Of a stretch of 64,000 bases of DNA, positions 15,677 through 52,200 are shown piece after piece. Location: contig CANKVS010000002.1 in NCBI GenBank assembly GCA_947487155.1, positions 62,001 to 126,000 of the forward strand, read 5' to 3'. The translations under genes were made by a program, and so were the position numbers. This DNA comes from an uncultured Flaviramulus sp. (lineage in GTDB: Bacteria; Bacteroidota; Bacteroidia; Flavobacteriales; Flavobacteriaceae). Numbering within the stretch: the first letter of the stretch is position 1; each line of letters starts with the position of its first letter. The notes beneath the pieces are model-generated. The model saw only the letters and a list, made by a program, of their open reading frames with translations, was not told where the DNA came from and ran no database searches.

Positions 15677-15684
15677 TATTTTTG
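15677..15684 (+). promoter_or_regulatory. Predicted -7 element before the arginine leader peptide
   Basis: TATTTTTG is a perfect match to the Bacteroidota -7 consensus TAnnTTTG. The leader-peptide ATG at 15690 begins only five bases after it, so the transcript would be leaderless or nearly so. No good TTG at -33 is visible. Confidence 0.45.
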
Positions 15685-15689
15685 TATCA

Positions 15690-15758
15690 ATGATTACTCA
15701 AGAAAATAAAATACGTGTTAATATTCCCAGTTTGCGCTTGCGCAACCGCCGTCGCTAA
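15690..15758 (+). CDS. Candidate arginine-rich regulatory leader peptide
   Basis: A 22-codon ORF begins MITQENKIRV and ends in RLRNRRR followed by TAA. Six of 22 codons are arginine and five of the last seven are CGC or CGT. It is the first ATG after a consensus -7 element and lies 315 bases upstream of the first gene of an arginine biosynthesis operon. Such a stack of codons for the end-product amino acid just before a stop is the hallmark of ribosome-mediated attenuation or of stalling on low charged tRNA-Arg. I did not find a clear terminator/antiterminator pair downstream, so the mechanism is open. Confidence 0.6.
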   Translation: MITQENKIRVNIPSLRLRNRRR

Positions 15759-16073
15759 TTCTTAATTTTAGCTTTGAACCGAATACGTAATTTTTATTTT
15801 TTCACTTTGTATCAATCAATTTCAATAACATTTTTTAAAACCCAAGTTGTTTCTCAAAACAACAAAAACTTTGTGCGTCGCTTTTTTCCACGTCGCCCGT
15901 AAGGGTGTACTTCAATTTTTGAACAAGGTGAGTCCAGTTCAGCATAAAAAAAAGACCGAAATTTAATTTATATTCAATAAAAGATATACAACGAAACATT
16001 CATGATTAAAAATTTAATTATACAGCATAATAATTTTGAATGTTATCATTAAAAAAGAAATAAGTATTAACGC
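15759..16073 (+). promoter_or_regulatory. Long untranslated leader of the arginine operon
   Basis: This 315-base stretch between the leader peptide and the acyltransferase gene holds no convincing ORF. It contains a small hairpin (GTTGTTT CTCA AAACAAC at about 15848-15865), the pentamer GTCGC twice more in the same sense as in the leader ORF, a short CGCCC GTAA GGGTG stem near 15895-15908 and a T-run after GTGCGTCGC. These may form the attenuation structure, but I could not derive a clean alternative pairing by eye. Confidence 0.35.
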
Positions 16074-16694
16074 ATGAAAATTGTAATTGCCGATACATCA
16101 CATAGTAAATACGCAGAAATTATTTGCGAGACTATTGCAGAGTCTGCAAGTGTTAGGGGTACAGGTATTGCTAAGCGTACACCAGAGTATATTGCAACCA
16201 AAATGAAAAATGGTAATGCAGTTATAGCTTTAGATGGAGATATTTTTGCTGGATTTTGCTATATAGAAGCATGGGGACATGGTAAATTTGTTGCTAATTC
16301 TGGGCTTATTGTTCACCCAAAATACCGAGGAAAAGGTTTAGCAAAACAAATAAAGCATATTGTATTTAAGCATTCCAGAGAAAAATATCCTAACTCTAAG
16401 GTGTTTAGCATCACAACAGGATTAGCCGTAATGAAGCTTAATAGTGATTTGGGATATAAACCTGTTACGTTTTCTGAACTAACAGACGATCAATCGTTTT
16501 GGAAAGGTTGTCAAACCTGCAAAAATTACGATGTTTTAACACGAACTAAACAAACCATGTGTTTGTGTACAGGAATGTTATACGACCCTAATTTAAAAGC
16601 AACAAAAACAGATAATAAAAAAATAAAAGAGAAGGTTTTTAAAAGATTAAAAAGAATTAAAGAGGCCTTGTATTTAAAAAAGAATAAAAAATAA
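16074..16694 (+). CDS. GNAT acyltransferase, probable N-acylglutamate synthase of arginine synthesis
   Basis: A 206-residue GNAT-fold protein. The acetyl-CoA site is visible in GLIVHPKYRGKGLAKQIKH (R/Q-x-x-G-x-G/A motif) and ends with an unusual basic tail (KIKEKVFKRLKRIKEALYL). A cysteine set (CQTCKNYDVL...TMCLCTGMLYD) is atypical for GNATs. It is the first gene of the arginine operon and no other argA or argJ is present, so it probably makes the N-acylglutamate that argB and argC use. The acyl group could be acetyl or, given the carbamoyltransferase type, succinyl (inference). Confidence 0.7.
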   Translation: MKIVIADTSHSKYAEIICETIAESASVRGTGIAKRTPEYIATKMKNGNAVIALDGDIFAGFCYIEAWGHGKFVANSGLIVHPKYRGKGLAKQIKHIVFKHSREKYPNSKVFSITTGLAVMKLNSDLGYKPVTFSELTDDQSFWKGCQTCKNYDVLTRTKQTMCLCTGMLYDPNLKATKTDNKKIKEKVFKRLKRIKEALYLKKNKK

Positions 16695-16738: not shown

Positions 16739-17914
16739 ATGAAAAAGTTAGTTATAGCCTATAGTGGAGGTTTAGATACATCATATTGCGCAGTAAGTTT
16801 ATCGAAAGCATACGATGTGCATGCCGTAAGTGTAAATACTGGAGGGTTTACAAAAGAAGAAATAAACCATATTGAAGCGAATGCTTATAAAATGGGCGTT
16901 TCAACGTATAAAAATATTGATGCAGTAGCTACATTTTATCAAAAAGTAGTGAAATATTTAATTTTTGGTAATGTGTTAAAAAATAACAGTTACCCATTAT
17001 CTGTAAGTGCAGAACGAATTATTCAGGCTATTGAAATTGTAGAGTATGCAAAAAGTATTGATGCCGAATATATTGCACACGGCAGTACAGGAGCAGGAAA
17101 CGATCAAGTACGATTCGATATGATTTTTCAAACATTGGCACCAAATATTAAAATTATTACACCAATTAGAGACGAAAAATTAACCAGACAAGAAGAAATC
17201 GATTATTTAAAATCGAATGGCATCGATATGTCTTGGGAAAAAGCAAAATATTCAATTAATAAAGGGCTTTGGGGAACAAGTGTAGGCGGAGAAGAAACGC
17301 TAACTTCTGAAAAACCATTGCCAGAACACGCTTATCCATCGCAAGTAAAACATTCTGAACCAGAAAAAGTAACACTAAGCTTTTTAAGAGGAGAATTGGT
17401 TGCTGTAAATGGTATGGAGAACGATCCAGAAATTAATATTGAAGTACTAAATAACTTAGCTTCGGTGTATGGAATTGGTAGAGATATTCATGTAGGCGAT
17501 ACCATTGTAGGTATTAAAGGGCGTGTAGGGTTTGAAGCAGCGGCGGCATTAATTACCATAAAAGCACACCACCTTTTAGAAAAGCATACCTTAACCAAAT
17601 GGCAATTACAACACAAAGAATATTTGTCTAGCTTTTATGGTATGCACTTGCATGAAGGGCAGTATTTAGATCCAGTAATGCGAGACATTGAGTCGTTTTT
17701 AGCAAGCAGTCAAGATAAAGTAAGTGGCGATGTTATAGTAACGTTGATGCCTTATCATTTTACTTTAGATGGTATTATATCTGAACATGATTTAATGAGT
17801 GCTAAATTTGGAAGCTACGGCGAAGAAAATAAAGGATGGACAGCAGACGAGGCTAAAGGTTTTATTAAAATTTTAGGCAATCAAAACAAAATATATCAAC
17901 AAATAAATTCGTAG
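16739..17914 (+). CDS. argG: Argininosuccinate synthase
   Basis: A 391-residue ATP-dependent ligase joining citrulline and aspartate. The PP-loop motif AYSGGLDTSYC is at the N-terminus; EYIAHGSTGAGNDQVRF carries the citrulline and ATP contacts, and TSVGGEETLTSEKPLPEHAYPS follows. The length is normal for the family. It lies 44 bases after the GNAT gene, a gap containing a small hairpin (ATTTCCTCCTACGAGGAAAT), and 2 bases before argC, so it belongs to the operon core. Confidence 0.93.
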   Translation: MKKLVIAYSGGLDTSYCAVSLSKAYDVHAVSVNTGGFTKEEINHIEANAYKMGVSTYKNIDAVATFYQKVVKYLIFGNVLKNNSYPLSVSAERIIQAIEIVEYAKSIDAEYIAHGSTGAGNDQVRFDMIFQTLAPNIKIITPIRDEKLTRQEEIDYLKSNGIDMSWEKAKYSINKGLWGTSVGGEETLTSEKPLPEHAYPSQVKHSEPEKVTLSFLRGELVAVNGMENDPEINIEVLNNLASVYGIGRDIHVGDTIVGIKGRVGFEAAAALITIKAHHLLEKHTLTKWQLQHKEYLSSFYGMHLHEGQYLDPVMRDIESFLASSQDKVSGDVIVTLMPYHFTLDGIISEHDLMSAKFGSYGEENKGWTADEAKGFIKILGNQNKIYQQINS

Positions 17915-17916
17915 TT

Positions 17917-18894
17917 ATGATTGAAGTTGGAATTATTGGAGGCGCTGGGTATACAGCAGGAGAATTAATTAGGTTGTTGATTTCTCATCCAAATACAAAC
18001 TTAAATTTTGTGTTTAGTACAAGTAACGCTGGAAACAAAATTAGTAAGGTGCATCAAGATTTGGTGGGGTCTTTAGATTTAAAATTTACAGATACTGTTA
18101 ACCCTAATGTAGATGTTTTGTTTCTGTGTTTGGGGCATGGTAATTCAGTGAAGTTTTTAGAAAACAATACATTTTCAGAAAACACTAAAATCATTGATTT
18201 GGGTAACGATTTTAGATTAGAAGCTGATAAAGTTTTTAATGGAAAAACCTTTGTTTACGGCTTGCCAGAATTACAAAGAGAAGCTATTAAACAAGCTAAT
18301 TACATAGCAAATCCAGGGTGTTTTGCTACAGCAATTCAGTTGGGGTTGTTACCGTTAGCAGAACACGATTTGTTAAATAACGATGTGCATATTAATGCTG
18401 TAACAGGTGCAACAGGAGCGGGAACGTCATTGTCTGCAACAACGCATTACACTTGGAGAGATAATAATTTTTCGTATTATAAACCTTTTACGCATCAGCA
18501 TTTAGATGAAATTAATCAATCGGTAAAACAATTGCAAAGTAGTTTTGTGTCAGATATTTTGTTTATGCCCAATAGAGGTAATTTTTCAAGAGGTATTTTT
18601 GCAACAATTTACACCAATTTTGAAGGTTCGTTGGAAGAGGCAGTAAGTATGTATAAAATATTTTATAAAGATGCTAAATTTACCTTTGTTTCAGATGAAG
18701 CGATTCATTTAAAACAAGTTGTTAATACAAATAAGTGCATTATTCATTTGCATAAACACGAAGGTAAATTGCTAATTACAAGTGTTATAGATAACCTTTT
18801 AAAGGGAGCGTCTGGTCAAGCGATTCAGAATATGAATTTAATGTTCGGACTCGAAGAAACAGAAGGGTTACAATTAAAAGCAACGTATTTTTAG
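17917..18894 (+). CDS. argC: N-acyl-gamma-glutamyl-phosphate reductase
   Basis: A 325-residue NADPH-dependent reductase. It has the Rossmann motif GIIGGAGYTAGELIRLL at the N-terminus, the catalytic cysteine in NPGCFATAIQLGLLPL, and the KPFTHQHLDEI segment bearing the active-site His. It acts after argB in the acylated branch of arginine synthesis. Only two bases separate it from argG, and a repeat-filled 220-base gap separates it from proC. Confidence 0.93.
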   Translation: MIEVGIIGGAGYTAGELIRLLISHPNTNLNFVFSTSNAGNKISKVHQDLVGSLDLKFTDTVNPNVDVLFLCLGHGNSVKFLENNTFSENTKIIDLGNDFRLEADKVFNGKTFVYGLPELQREAIKQANYIANPGCFATAIQLGLLPLAEHDLLNNDVHINAVTGATGAGTSLSATTHYTWRDNNFSYYKPFTHQHLDEINQSVKQLQSSFVSDILFMPNRGNFSRGIFATIYTNFEGSLEEAVSMYKIFYKDAKFTFVSDEAIHLKQVVNTNKCIIHLHKHEGKLLITSVIDNLLKGASGQAIQNMNLMFGLEETEGLQLKATYF

Positions 18895-34606: not shown

Positions 34607-34695
34607 TTTTTTTTGAAAAAAAACCAAAAAAATTAGGATTTTAACTTTTTCTGAACGAATATTTGTATTCACAAAGTTCAATAAGGTATTGAAAT

Positions 34696-34792
34696 GTTAT
34701 CAAGAAAGGCAGAGGGATTAGACCCAATGAAGCCTTAGCAACCCTTTACTTGTAAAGAAGGTGCTAAATTCTACCCATAACGGATAGATAAC
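34696..34792 (+). ncRNA. SAM-I (S-box) riboswitch upstream of metY
   Basis: The stretch GTTATCAAGAAAGGCAGAGG, GGATTAGACCC, ATGAAGCCTTAGCAACCC and AAGGTGCTAAATTC carries the conserved S-box core. P1 is closed by GTTATC at 34696-34701 and GATAAC at 34787-34792. It lies 187 bases before metY and should shut off the metY-fusion-metZ transcript when SAM is abundant. The 3' platform contains a possible stem (TTTACTC with GAGTAAA) that could be the switch. Confidence 0.92.
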
Positions 34793-34979
34793 TAGACGAA
34801 ATTATTTTCTGTAATTTCTTAAATTTCTTCTTAACATTTTTCTATTAAATCTAAGAGTTTACTCTGAGGTGCTTTTGCATCGAAGTTTTAATTCAATTTT
34901 TAATTCTCGTGTGAGCACTGAGTAAAATCGAAGTGAAAAGCGGGAAACTTTAAGTTTAACTAAATAAAATATTAGAGAA

Positions 34980-36257
34980 ATGAGTACACAAAAATTGGCA
35001 ACACAAGCACTACACGCAGGGCACGATGTAACAGCAAATGCAGGAACAAGAGCTGTTCCTATTTATCAAACAACATCTTATGTTTTTAATGATTCCGACC
35101 ATGCAGCAAATTTATTTTCATTGCAAGAATTAGGTTTCATTTACACACGTTTAAATAACCCAACCAATCAAATTTTACAAGAGCGATTAGCAGCTCTAGA
35201 AGGCGGTATAGGAGCCGTTGTTTTTGCATCAGGGACTTCAGCCATTTCAACAGGGTTATTAACCTTGTTAAAAGCAGGAGACCACATAGTTGCTTCGAGT
35301 AGTTTGTATGGTGGTACATATAACTTGCTAAAAGTTACATTACCTCGATTTGGTATTACAACAACTTTTGTTGATGCCGATAATCCAGATAATTTTGCAG
35401 CTGCTGTACAAGATAACACTAGGGCATTTTTTGTGGAATCTTTAGGAAATCCTAAATTAGATGTTTTAGATTTAGAAGCCATTTCTGTACATTCAAAAGC
35501 GGCAGGAGTACCTTTTATTGTTGATAATACAGTTGCAACACCAGCATTATTAAATCCTTTAAAACATGGTGCAAATATTGTAATTCATTCATTAACCAAA
35601 TACATTGGAGGACAAGGAAATTCTATAGGAGGTGCTATTATTGATGGTGGAACTTTTGATTGGGCTAATAGAAAATTTCCAGAATTTACAGAACCATCTG
35701 CAGGATATCACGGATTAGTGTATCACGAAGCTTTAGGTGCTGCTGCCTATACTTTTAAATTAATATTAGAAGGATTAAGAGATTTAGGTGGTGCTTTAAG
35801 TCCAACAAATGCCTTTAATATTATTCAAGGGTTAGAAACATTACCAGTAAGAATAAAACAACATAGCGAAAATGCTTTGGCTTTAGCAAAATGGTTAGAG
35901 CAGCAAGATGAGGTTACCTGGGTAAATTACCCTGGATTAGAAAGTAGTAAATACAAATCGTTAGCAAATAAATACTTGCCTAAAGGGCAAAGTGGTATTG
36001 TAACTTTTGGAGCTAAAGGTGGGTACGATGCTGCAAAAACGATAGCTGATACAACTAAAGTATTTTCATTATTAGCTAATATTGGAGATACCAAATCATT
36101 AATTATTCACCCAGGAAGTACAACCCATCAACAATTAACTGAAGAAGAACAAGCATCATCTGGTGTGACTTCAGATTTAATAAGATTGTCTGTAGGTATT
36201 GAAGATTTAGATGATTTAAAAGCTGATTTAAAAGCAGCATTTGCAGAAATTAAATAG
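34980..36257 (+). CDS. metY: O-acetylhomoserine sulfhydrylase
   Basis: A 425-residue PLP enzyme of the Cys/Met metabolism family. TQALHAGHDVTANAGTRAVP and PIYQTTSYVFNDSDHAANLF open it; ASGTSAISTGLLTLLKAGDH, VDNTVATPALLNPLKHGANI and the PLP lysine in VIHSLTKYIGGQGNSIGG follow. The long form and sequence near the lysine fit MetY rather than cystathionine gamma-synthase. It makes homocysteine from O-acetylhomoserine and sulfide. It sits directly behind a SAM riboswitch and in front of the enzyme that makes its substrate. Confidence 0.9.
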   Translation: MSTQKLATQALHAGHDVTANAGTRAVPIYQTTSYVFNDSDHAANLFSLQELGFIYTRLNNPTNQILQERLAALEGGIGAVVFASGTSAISTGLLTLLKAGDHIVASSSLYGGTYNLLKVTLPRFGITTTFVDADNPDNFAAAVQDNTRAFFVESLGNPKLDVLDLEAISVHSKAAGVPFIVDNTVATPALLNPLKHGANIVIHSLTKYIGGQGNSIGGAIIDGGTFDWANRKFPEFTEPSAGYHGLVYHEALGAAAYTFKLILEGLRDLGGALSPTNAFNIIQGLETLPVRIKQHSENALALAKWLEQQDEVTWVNYPGLESSKYKSLANKYLPKGQSGIVTFGAKGGYDAAKTIADTTKVFSLLANIGDTKSLIIHPGSTTHQQLTEEEQASSGVTSDLIRLSVGIEDLDDLKADLKAAFAEIK

Positions 36258-36269
36258 TTTACCATACTC

Positions 36270-39200
36270 TTGAAAAAAGACTTACAACATATCATTATTA
36301 CCGATTTTATTACAGAAAATAATACTGTAATTAACAATATCGAATTAAGCTATCAGGTATTTGGGAAACCTTTAGGAAGCGCTCCTATAGTACTAGTAAA
36401 TCATGCGTTAACAGGAAATAGTGATGTTGCAGGGAAAACGGGTTGGTGGTCAGATTTAATCGGTGATAATAAAGTTATAGATACTAAATTATATTCAGTT
36501 TTAGCATTTAATATTCCTGGTAATGGTTTTGATGGTTTTACTATTGAAAACTATAAAGATTTTATTGCTAGAGATATTGCTAAACTGTTTATAATTGGTC
36601 TGCAAGAGTTAAAAATAGAAAAATTATATGCTGTTATAGGCGGCTCTTTAGGTGGTGGTATTGCATGGGAAATGGCTGCTTTAAAACCAGATTTTACAGA
36701 GCATTTAATTCCTGTAGCTACCGATTGGAAATCTACGGATTGGCTTATTGCGAATTGTCAAATTCAAGAACAATTTCTTTTAAACTCTAAAAACCCAGTG
36801 CACGATGCTAGAATGCATGCCATGTTATGTTATCGTACGCCAGAGTCGTTTAAGGAGCGTTTTCAGCGTTCTAAAAATGATGATTTAGAAATTTTTAATG
36901 TAGAAAGTTGGTTGTTACATCACGGCAATAAATTACAAGAACGTTTTCAACTTTCAGCATATAAGTTGATGAATCAGTTGCTTAAAACAATTGATGTTAC
37001 AAAAAATAGAAAAAACGATTTTAATGTTTTAGAAAACATAACGGCTAATATTCATATTGTTGGTGTGGATTCAGATTTGTTTTTTACAGCCGAAGAAAAT
37101 AAGCAAACTCATAAACAACTAGCACTTACGCATCCTAATGTAACCTATAACGAAATTAATTCGGTGCATGGTCATGATGCATTTTTAATAGAATACGACC
37201 AATTAGAAAAAATTATAGAAGGCATTTTTGTGCCAGATTCTAAAAAAAGAAAAATGAAAGTATTAAAGTTTGGAGGAAAATCTTTAGCAAACGGTGATGG
37301 ATTAAATAAAGTACTTTCCATCATTGAAAATAAAGTGAATGGTGGCGAAAAAATTACTGCTGTTCTTTCAGCGAGAGGAAATGCAACCGATGATTTAGAA
37401 CGGATTTTAAATAAGGCTCTTAAAGGGCAAGACTATAAAATTGATTTAGAAGAATTTAAGGTTTATCAAAAAGAACCACTTAAGGAAATAGATTTTTCAG
37501 AAGAATTTTTAACCCTAGATAAACTCTTTGAAGGTGTAAGTTTACTGCGAGATTACAGCCAGAAAACTAAAGATGAAATTTTGGCTCAAGGGGAGTTACT
37601 GTCTGTTAAACTCGTTTCAGGATTGCTTAATGCGCGTGGTATAGATGCTAAAGCTACAGATTCAAGGCAGTTAATTAAAACCGACGATAATTTTGGCAAT
37701 GCGCAACCCATTTCTCAGCTTACCAAAGACAACGTTAGGCGTTATTTTAAGCAAAATAATAATACAGTTAATATTATTACTGGTTTTATTGCTTCAAATT
37801 CAAATAATGAAACAACCACGTTAGGTAGAAACGGAAGTAATTATTCAGCAGCATTATTAGCCAATTATTTAGATGCTGAAGAATTGCAAAATTATACACA
37901 CGTAAACGGCATTTACACAGCTAATCCAGATTTAGTGGCTGATGCTCAAAAAATACGTGAGCTATCATTTAGTGAAGCAAATGAGTTGGCTAATTTTGGT
38001 ACCACAGTATTACATGCAAAAACCATTATTCCGTTAGTAGAAAAAAACATCAACTTACGAATTTTAAACACCTTTAATCCAGATGATGAAGGCACCTTAA
38101 TTACAGCTAAACCAAGCACTAAAGAGGTAACTTCACTATCTGTTTTAGATAATGTAGCGTTATTAAATTTAGAAGGACGTGGGTTATTAGGGAAAATTGG
38201 TGTTGATGCTAGAATTTTTAGAGCCTTAAGCGATCATGGTATTAGTGTTAGTATAATTTCTCAAGGCTCGTCAGAGCGAGGCATTGGGCTAATTATAGAT
38301 GCTGAAAAAGCAACTCAAGCAGTTATAGCCTTAGAACGCGAATTTGAAAGCGACTTTTATTCGCAAGATGTAAATAAAATTGAAGTGGTTGATGATGTTT
38401 CAGTCATTTCAATTATTGGTATAGAGCTAAGTTCTTTCCATAAACCATTCAATGCCTTAATTAAAAATCAAATTACACCATTGTTGTTCAATAATACGGT
38501 TACAGGTAGAAATGTGAGTTTGGTGGTTAAAAAAAATCAACTGCATAAAGCTGTAAATGTAATTCATGGTGAAGTTTTCGGAATTTCAAAAAAAATAAAC
38601 ATAGCTATTTTTGGTCATGGCGGTGTTGGTGGTGCACTAATAAACCAAATTTTAAAATCGAAAGATGAGATTGAAAAACGAAAAGGTATCAACCTGAATG
38701 TTTTTGCTATTGCAAATTCTAGAAAACTACTTTTAAATAAAAATGGCGTTGATGAGAATTGGCAAGATAATTTAGATTCTACTTTACAAGAAAGTTCAAT
38801 CGAGTCTATTATTGCATTTGCAAAATCACATCATTTAGAAAATTTAATTGGGGTAGATAATACTTCAAGTTCAGAGTTTCACTCAAATTATGTGCCTTTA
38901 GTTGAAGCTGGTTTTGATTTGGTGTCGTCTAATAAAATAGCTAATACTATTTCTCATGATTTTTATAGCGATTTAAGAGTTCAATTAAAAGAAAATAATA
39001 AGCAGTATTTGTATGAAACTACGGTTGGTGCTGGTTTGCCATTAATAGATACGATTAAGTTATTACACGAGTCTGGTGAGAATATTACTAGAATTAGAGG
39101 TGTGTTTTCTGGGACATTAAGTTATTTATTTAATAATTTTTCAATTCAAGACAAACCATTTAGTGAAATTATTCAAGAAACTATTGATAAAGGATTTACT

Positions 39201-39668
39201 GAACCAGATCCTAGAGAAGATTTTTCAGGAAATGATGTGGCTAGAAAATTGTTAATTCTCGCAAGAGAGTTAGATTTGCAGAATGAATTTGAAGATGTTG
39301 AGGTTCAGAATTTAATTCTGGAAGCATATCAAAATATTTCGGTTGAATCTTTTTTAAGTCAGTTGAATGTTTTAGATGAGCAATATCAAAAGATAAAAGA
39401 AGATCAAGCAGAAGGGCACGTGTTGAGATATGTTGGTGATTTATCTGGTGATTTGTCTCAAGACAAAGGAAATTTAGAAGTAAAATTAGTATCTATTCCA
39501 GAAGATAGCACGTTGGGCCATGTAAAAGGCTCTGATGCCATTTTTGAAATATTTACAGAATCTTATGGCGAACAACCTATTGTAATTCAAGGAGCAGGAG
39601 CAGGAGCAGAAGTAACCGCCAGAGGTGTTTTTGGAGATATTTTAAGGTTGTCGAAGCATATAAATTAG
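36270..39668 (+). CDS. Trifunctional fusion: homoserine O-acetyltransferase / aspartokinase / homoserine dehydrogenase
   Basis: A 1132-residue fusion. Residues 1 to about 325 are an alpha/beta hydrolase of MetX type (NHALTGNSD, nucleophile Ser in IGGSLGGGIAWEMA, Asp in GVDSDLFF, His in VHGHDAFLI). Residues 329 to about 770 are aspartokinase with ACT domains (MKVLKFGGKSLANG, TTLGRNGSNYSAALLA, GLLGKIGVDARIFRAL). Residues 776-1132 are homoserine dehydrogenase (INIAIFGHGGVGGALI, FSGTLSYLFNNF, GFTEPDPREDFSGNDVARK). The start is a TTG; no in-frame ATG lies nearby. It joins the first, branch-point and acylation steps of methionine synthesis in one chain under SAM control. Confidence 0.9.
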   Translation: MKKDLQHIIITDFITENNTVINNIELSYQVFGKPLGSAPIVLVNHALTGNSDVAGKTGWWSDLIGDNKVIDTKLYSVLAFNIPGNGFDGFTIENYKDFIARDIAKLFIIGLQELKIEKLYAVIGGSLGGGIAWEMAALKPDFTEHLIPVATDWKSTDWLIANCQIQEQFLLNSKNPVHDARMHAMLCYRTPESFKERFQRSKNDDLEIFNVESWLLHHGNKLQERFQLSAYKLMNQLLKTIDVTKNRKNDFNVLENITANIHIVGVDSDLFFTAEENKQTHKQLALTHPNVTYNEINSVHGHDAFLIEYDQLEKIIEGIFVPDSKKRKMKVLKFGGKSLANGDGLNKVLSIIENKVNGGEKITAVLSARGNATDDLERILNKALKGQDYKIDLEEFKVYQKEPLKEIDFSEEFLTLDKLFEGVSLLRDYSQKTKDEILAQGELLSVKLVSGLLNARGIDAKATDSRQLIKTDDNFGNAQPISQLTKDNVRRYFKQNNNTVNIITGFIASNSNNETTTLGRNGSNYSAALLANYLDAEELQNYTHVNGIYTANPDLVADAQKIRELSFSEANELANFGTTVLHAKTIIPLVEKNINLRILNTFNPDDEGTLITAKPSTKEVTSLSVLDNVALLNLEGRGLLGKIGVDARIFRALSDHGISVSIISQGSSERGIGLIIDAEKATQAVIALEREFESDFYSQDVNKIEVVDDVSVISIIGIELSSFHKPFNALIKNQITPLLFNNTVTGRNVSLVVKKNQLHKAVNVIHGEVFGISKKINIAIFGHGGVGGALINQILKSKDEIEKRKGINLNVFAIANSRKLLLNKNGVDENWQDNLDSTLQESSIESIIAFAKSHHLENLIGVDNTSSSEFHSNYVPLVEAGFDLVSSNKIANTISHDFYSDLRVQLKENNKQYLYETTVGAGLPLIDTIKLLHESGENITRIRGVFSGTLSYLFNNFSIQDKPFSEIIQETIDKGFTEPDPREDFSGNDVARKLLILARELDLQNEFEDVEVQNLILEAYQNISVESFLSQLNVLDEQYQKIKEDQAEGHVLRYVGDLSGDLSQDKGNLEVKLVSIPEDSTLGHVKGSDAIFEIFTESYGEQPIVIQGAGAGAEVTARGVFGDILRLSKHIN

Positions 39669-51994: not shown

Positions 51995-52021
51995 CGCTCA
52001 GTTCATAAACGTATTAATAGT

Positions 52022-52129
52022 GTTATCAAGAAAGGCAGAGGGATTAGATCCGATGAAGCCTTGGCAACCCTTTAATTTTTAAAGAAGGTGCTACATTCTA
52101 CTAATATTTAATAATATTAGAAAGATAAC
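52022..52129 (+). ncRNA. SAM-I (S-box) riboswitch upstream of the split metH
   Basis: GTTATCAAGAAAGGCAGAGG, GGATTAGATCC, ATGAAGCCTTGGCAACCC and AAGGTGCTACATTC reproduce the S-box core and differ from the metY copy mainly in loops. P1 is GTTATC (52022-52027) with GATAAC (52124-52129); a P4-like stem is formed by CTAATATT and AATATTAG. A T-rich run with CCTGTCAGGTTTTTAAAA follows just before metH. Confidence 0.92.
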
Positions 52130-52200
52130 GAAAAGTGTTTCCTTAACTTTTCTTGATGACATTAAAATTAATAGACCTGTCAGGTTTTTAAAAATAAAAA

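Follow-up and report, generated by a model that had tools for sequence, protein, structure and literature searches.

Ribosome-mediated attenuators of the trp, his and leu type combine a short ORF, in which codons for the amino acid made by the operon are clustered, with RNA structure around it, just past a promoter. Arginine is sensed through leader-ORF Arg codons in orf34 (SpeFL) of the speF leader of Salmonella and other gammaproteobacteria, where control also depends on occupancy of the stop codon and on hairpins further downstream (PMC6386406). A leaderless leader peptide is found at trpL of Sinorhizobium meliloti, whose RNA starts at the leader-ORF AUG (PMC7298713). Among the Bacteroidetes, the Bacteroid-trp RNA (RF01692) is a cis-regulatory RNA (PMC2864571, PMC9723704), and passages of the second of these papers report leader-peptide attenuation upstream of amino-acid biosynthesis operons in Flavobacterium psychrophilum.

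The locus described here lies in a 64,000-nt stretch of DNA (the window, meaning the whole of that stretch), which among named relatives is closest to an uncultured Flaviramulus. It shares with the trp, his and leu attenuators the short ORF rich in such codons and the RNA structure around it, and stands just past a putative promoter, but with arginine as the amino acid, a near-leaderless start, two tandem ORFs, the first of which is itself the 5' arm of a stem, and a downstream hairpin with an invariant loop; no simple terminator/antiterminator pair was found. SpeFL differs in controlling polyamine synthesis, in carrying two Arg codons in mid-ORF, in its sequence and RNA, in acting through Rho and RNase G, and in not being leaderless; its core (PF10940, HIRRTxHIMM) is present by inspection in neither ORF here, and the operon is arg rather than speF. 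The S. meliloti system is a classical tryptophan attenuator with one ORF, in an alphaproteobacterium. No Rfam family (T-box, Bacteroid-trp and Flavo-1 included) matches the leader region, and no bacterial arginine-operon leader peptide of the same kind was found in the literature searched (main texts of papers outside subscription). The best explanation, to which we give a probability of about 0.75 on sequence comparison, is a ribosome-mediated, near-leaderless arginine leader-peptide regulator with tandem leaders, controlling the GNAT-argG-argC-pro-argF operon. Comparison establishes its support: conservation of the ORF, choice of Arg codons, two covarying stems, specificity to a single locus, and the lack of an ArgR match.

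The arginine operon and its first leader ORF

By Pfam assignment, the genes after the leader are in the order GNAT, argG, argC, proC, a class-III aminotransferase (argD-like), a proA-like gene (aldehyde-dehydrogenase family), a proB-like gene (amino-acid-kinase family) and an argF-like gene (carbamoyltransferase). Features of the leader and of the first three genes, in window coordinates, are:

15677..15684, + strand: TAnnTTTG (-7) promoter element, TATTTTTG, with TATCA (five bases) between it and the ORF1 ATG
15690..15758, + strand: leader ORF1, near-leaderless, MITQENKIRVNIPSLRLRNRRR, 22 codons from ATG at 15690 to stop codon TAA at 15756-15758, ending RLRNRRR
15699..15719, + strand: outer stem, 5' arm, inside ORF1 (codons 4-10), CAAGAAAATAAAATACGTGTT; predicted fold and partner-swap covariation
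15732..15745, + strand: inner hairpin over the Arg-rich codons, TTGCG-CTTG-CGCAA; predicted fold alone
15754..15772, + strand: inner hairpin with the ORF1 stop codon, GCTAA...TTAGC; predicted fold, with a similar GCTAA...TTAGC in several relatives
15782..15809, + strand: outer stem, 3' arm, AATACGTAATTTTTATTTTTTCACTTTG, U-rich, its last bases being the ORF2 start codon; predicted fold and covariation
15807..15902, + strand: leader ORF2, TTG start, 31 codons, ending NFVRRFFPRRP, in the frame of ORF1, its start inside the stem 3' arm
15846..15863, + strand: hairpin within ORF2, AGTTGTT...AACAACA; predicted fold, an equivalent hairpin covarying in single-leader relatives (z ~ -4)
15894..15907, + strand: hairpin A, CGCCC-GTAA-GGGTG, with the ORF2 stop codon in its tetraloop; alignment of 117 loci, model R1
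15921..15940, + strand: hairpin B, whose stem is GAAC and whose loop, GGTGAGTCC at 15927-15935, is near-invariant; 128 non-redundant loci
16074..16694, + strand: GNAT-family acetyltransferase, operon gene 1 (Pfam PF13508/PF00583)
16739..17914, + strand: argG, argininosuccinate synthase (Pfam PF00764, PF20979)
17917..18894, + strand: argC, N-acetyl-glutamyl-phosphate reductase, semialdehyde dehydrogenase family (Pfam PF01118, PF22698)

The original prediction placed a 22-codon ORF, with arginine at five of its last seven codons, five bases after TATTTTTG and 315 bases ahead of an arginine-making operon. Translation agrees as to the codons, and the coordinates as to both distances (promoter element to ATG at 15690; ORF end at 15758 to GNAT start at 16074). 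The TAnnTTTG element is described as the -7 box in passages of PMC9723704.

Of 200 Flavobacteriaceae genomes searched, 133 have a GNAT homologue; the analysis took in 130 upstream regions and then a further 80 with names. These were searched for TAnnTTT[GAC] followed after 3-6 nt by an ATG or GTG opening an ORF of 14-27 codons, with at least three Arg among the last eight, 270-480 nt before GNAT. This combination is present in 85 of 198 distinct regions upstream of GNAT-argG operons, against a mean of 0.00 for dinucleotide-shuffled sequences (20 rounds) and none on the reverse strand. Flaviramulus, Winogradskyella, Tenacibaculum, Polaribacter, Gelidibacter, Flavivirga and others have an ORF of 17-24 codons at the same position, 4-6 nt after TAnnTTT (for example MKNLKNKIRCTIPGLPVRSRRRF); across 103 loci, the distance from promoter element to ATG/GTG is 4 nt in 81, 5 nt in 21 and 6 nt in one. 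The leader-peptide reading put forward for the window is thus supported by an ORF, a promoter spacing and a terminal Arg cluster that are kept across many genera; that the ORF, its Arg codons and a downstream pairing should be conserved ahead of GNAT-argG in the family had been proposed as its check, and all three are, the pairing as a covarying stem.

Of the 459 Arg codons counted in ORF1, 374 are CGC or CGT, whereas the genes around it, GNAT among them, use AGA most often. At the third codon from the end, variation amounts to 0.55, 0.52 and 1.58 bits at positions 1, 2 and 3, the first two being nearly fixed and the third variable, as coding constraint predicts. Outside the Arg cluster the sequence varies freely between genera, although some non-Arg residues are kept (PGLPVRNRRR), and the conserved N-terminal NKIR is largely accounted for by the pairing described below. 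On this comparative evidence ORF1 is real and functional.

Stems, hairpins and the second leader

No matching pair for the ORF had been found originally. This is now overturned: by fold and covariation, the partner of ORF1 is 15782-15809. In folds of 38 relatives the common theme is pairing of codons 4-10 (typically AAAAAUAAAAUACGU) with ACGUAAUUUUUAUUUUUUU after the stop codon, enclosing the Arg codons; compensatory changes in the arms are seen at five loci (L038, L043, L069, L161, L201). In the window the 3' arm lies 24-51 nt beyond the stop. MAFFT alignment with RNAalifold did not find a consensus stem, because the A- and U-rich arms slip; alignment-free partner-swap tests were therefore used. 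In 39 non-redundant loci, true partners gave -9.74 kcal/mol against -6.73 when partners were swapped, lower than any of 20,000 permutations (p<5e-5). The window leader as a whole is not unusually stable (folding z -1.36). Of 91 two-leader relatives, 86, the window included, have a U-run (seven or more U in 9) at the 3' arm; the remaining five combine the stem with a weaker U-run, and the conserved role of the stem may therefore be something other than termination. Single-leader relatives have no outer stem.

A single leader ORF was foreseen for this locus, correctly as regards ORF1; a second leader and the conserved RNA structure were missed. In 60 two-leader loci an in-frame ATG, GTG or TTG with an open frame follows 39-59 nt past the ORF1 stop, and in the predicted fold of the window the TTG start at 15807-15809 pairs with CAA at 15699-15701. 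ORF2 corresponds to the sole leader of related genera (Flagellimonas, Arenibacter, Cellulophaga and Pricia among them), where it stands behind TACATTTG, of the form TAC(A/T)TTTR, plus 6-9 nt, and ends in RRRP or RRRRP before the stop codon. In a GNAT tree (FastTree, with weak supports) two-leader loci gather in one large and one small group, and single-leader loci in a separate one. A few loci are without hairpin B, or without ORF1 or ORF2. One of the deviating loci, L020, is a natural deletion that retains ORF1 and the stem and has lost the end of ORF2 and hairpins A and B. Three others (L042, L050, L118) show a third arrangement, with variant leaders MKTxNxIxTxV...RRFRRPL(G/R)V behind TAGAGTTAC and hairpin B 179-256 nt from GNAT.

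Across 128 non-redundant loci the loop of hairpin B reads GGTG[A/T/C]GTCC, with departures at position 7 alone (T in 124 of 128). Its stem has six of six pairs in 108 of these loci and covaries (partner swap p<5e-5). In each genome, searches with the combined A+B model (R1) gave a single strong match, which lies at the arg locus, any extra matches being weak. In 198 genomes of the phylum there was no convincing match outside the Flavobacteriaceae; three extra-family matches (L149, L151, L152) were rejected as unlike arg leaders, L151 being a CRISPR-like repeat array. The distance from the B loop to GNAT is 147-158 nt in the window genome and its congener L010 and about 60 nt in most relatives; the extra DNA, at window positions 15945-16073, carries an AT-rich inverted repeat (ACATTCA...TGAATGT).

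Between the B loop and the free 3' tail of 16S rRNA, whose sequence was checked in relatives, there is complementarity worth -10 to -12 kcal/mol; shuffled loops pair as well in 0.2-1.2% of cases. This tail is a weak lead as a partner, because ribosomes of Bacteroidia normally hide it, as stated in passages of PMC9976891. Two other partners were considered and set aside: the Arg codons (GGUG with CGCC), as this pairing would rely on invariant bases and L068 has no CGCC there, and a tRNA bound in the manner of a T-box, dropped by reasoning, as the loop has no UGGN.

Termination, gating and a proposed mechanism

A consensus scan of the window for intrinsic terminators (a G+C-rich hairpin with a U-run) found none, the only candidate being the AU-rich, long-loop stem with its U-run. 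Mutually exclusive antiterminator helices were sought by an alignment-free pair scan of single-leader loci, from which a helix of invariant sequence would escape; the scan gave only hairpins B and I and weak long-range helices, and no pairing of hairpins A or B with the GNAT start. The suspicion voiced at the outset, that the mechanism might depart from classical attenuation, was well placed in that a simple terminator was not found. As the searches brought up neither a simple terminator nor, in the single-leader loci scanned, an antiterminator helix, the locus is not filed as a member of the classical attenuators.

The U-run points to termination, and the stem with a weaker U-run in five loci points to gating of ORF2; the two are compatible rather than exclusive. 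Each could also be taken as the principal event. In a classical-style transcription attenuator, the outer stem would be an intrinsic terminator, with its A-tract in ORF1 and its U-run in the 3' arm, and ORF2 and hairpin B would be secondary. The A-tract/U-tract pairing fits this, as do the seven or more U in 9 of nearly all two-leader loci, the window among them, but it is made less likely than not by a loop of some 60 nt in an AU-rich stem that the consensus scan does not recognize, by the weaker U-run in five stem-keeping loci, and by the absence of the stem from single-leader relatives. In a translational cascade, the stem would hide the ORF2 start until ribosome traffic on ORF1 opened it, and ORF2 with hairpins A and B would control translation, Rho access or mRNA stability. 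This has a good chance of being right, if one somewhat short of even, given the ORF2 start at the end of the stem, the loci that keep the stem without a strong U-run, and the likeness to Salmonella speF, where orf34 translation senses arginine via Rho and RNase G (PMC6386406); on the other side, modelling has a single ribosome at the terminal cluster leaving ORF2 access unchanged, and no pairing of A or B with the GNAT start was found.

The ORFs could conceivably be by-products of pairing constraints on a structured RNA, perhaps an arginine- or protein-binding one, whose stems are the functional element. The covarying stems and invariant loop are the strongest signals at the locus, and pairing explains much of the conserved NKIR; yet frame, start, promoter spacing and Arg cluster are kept while nucleotides and cluster length vary, the conserved Arg codon changes at its third position and not at the first two, and both clades have Arg-rich leaders, which leaves this reading improbable. 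There is a very small chance that the ORF1 product is a basic peptide acting in trans. Trans-acting leader peptides do exist (peTrpL, for example; PMC7298713), and the conserved non-Arg residues of PGLPVRNRRR might be read in this way, but the sequence outside the cluster varies freely between genera and is partly set by pairing, and ORF1 is always at the arg operon.

Returning to the arginine leader-peptide regulator, we infer its start of transcription, stalling, direction of control and events at hairpin B as follows. Judging from the promoter spacing, transcription would start at, or a few bases before or after, the ORF1 AUG, and ribosomes would bind an mRNA with hardly any 5' leader. If charged tRNA-Arg ran short, a ribosome would stall in the terminal CGC/CGT cluster, with another queued behind it on codons 4-10, which would block pairing of the 5' arm with 15782-15809. 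Queueing is proposed because a lone ribosome stalled in the cluster covers about nt 37-70 of ORF1 and leaves the 5' arm free, whereas an early-stalled or queued one covers it: in footprint-blocked folding the former left the stem unopened with no gain in access to the ORF2 start, and the latter raised access from 0.40 to ~0.6 on average. Once the stem is open, RNA polymerase would no longer be stopped by the U-rich hairpin, and the ORF2 start would be exposed. ORF2 would then repeat the test, stalling in VRR..PRRP holding hairpin A open, and hairpin B would relay this state to the operon via its invariant GGUGnGUCC loop. When arginine is plentiful, both ORFs would be completed, the stems would close, and expression of the operon would be low.

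Arginine sensing in the Flavobacteriaceae

ArgR (PF01316) was found in none of 26 genomes (the window genome and 25 relatives); as a control, the same search was positive in 9 of 14 genomes, one Bacteroides among them. The Flavobacteriaceae thus appear to be without the usual arginine repressor protein. Leader-like ORFs also precede other amino-acid operons in relatives or the window genome, with HHHH before hisG (L236, L241, L242), WWW before trpE (L261, L263, L270) and IIVIVII before ilvD (L254, L256); examples are MTFIQAHHHHFYICSQAK, MKKLNQHTWWWNAYDS and MKKQILNIVSIIVIVIISQQ. Some of these ORFs lie behind the promoter element seen at the arg leader, and some of the trp ones begin a few nucleotides past TATATTTG. 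With Trp, His and Ile/Val-type leaders before their own operons, the family seems to use leader peptides widely.

Elsewhere in the window, two SAM riboswitches (RF00162) score above the gathering threshold, at 34694-34794 and 52020-52131. The first precedes a sulfhydrylase-like gene (Cys/Met metabolism) at 34980-36257, which is followed at 36270-39668 by a single 1132-aa ORF that by eye looks like a homoserine acetyltransferase fused to an aspartate kinase-homoserine dehydrogenase. On the minus strand at 35102, a Cys-rich ORF that follows TAnnTTTG lies antisense within gene 34980-36257 and was put down to chance.

It is possible to go further and regard the leader as a family-wide replacement of ArgR, operating without a classical terminator, in which tandem ORFs test arginine twice by queueing and a trans factor (possibly the free 16S rRNA 3' tail, or a protein) reads the B loop (AGGUGnGUCC); taken as a whole, this seems unlikely. 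If the leader-peptide reading itself is true, it would explain how arginine is sensed without ArgR in a large and ecologically important family. Bacteroidota ribosomes ignore Shine-Dalgarno sequences; here they would do the sensing, on leader ORFs that are themselves nearly leaderless. With its tandem layout and covarying stems, the locus would allow ribosome queueing to be tested as a means of regulation, and the invariant loop of hairpin B hints at a further partner.
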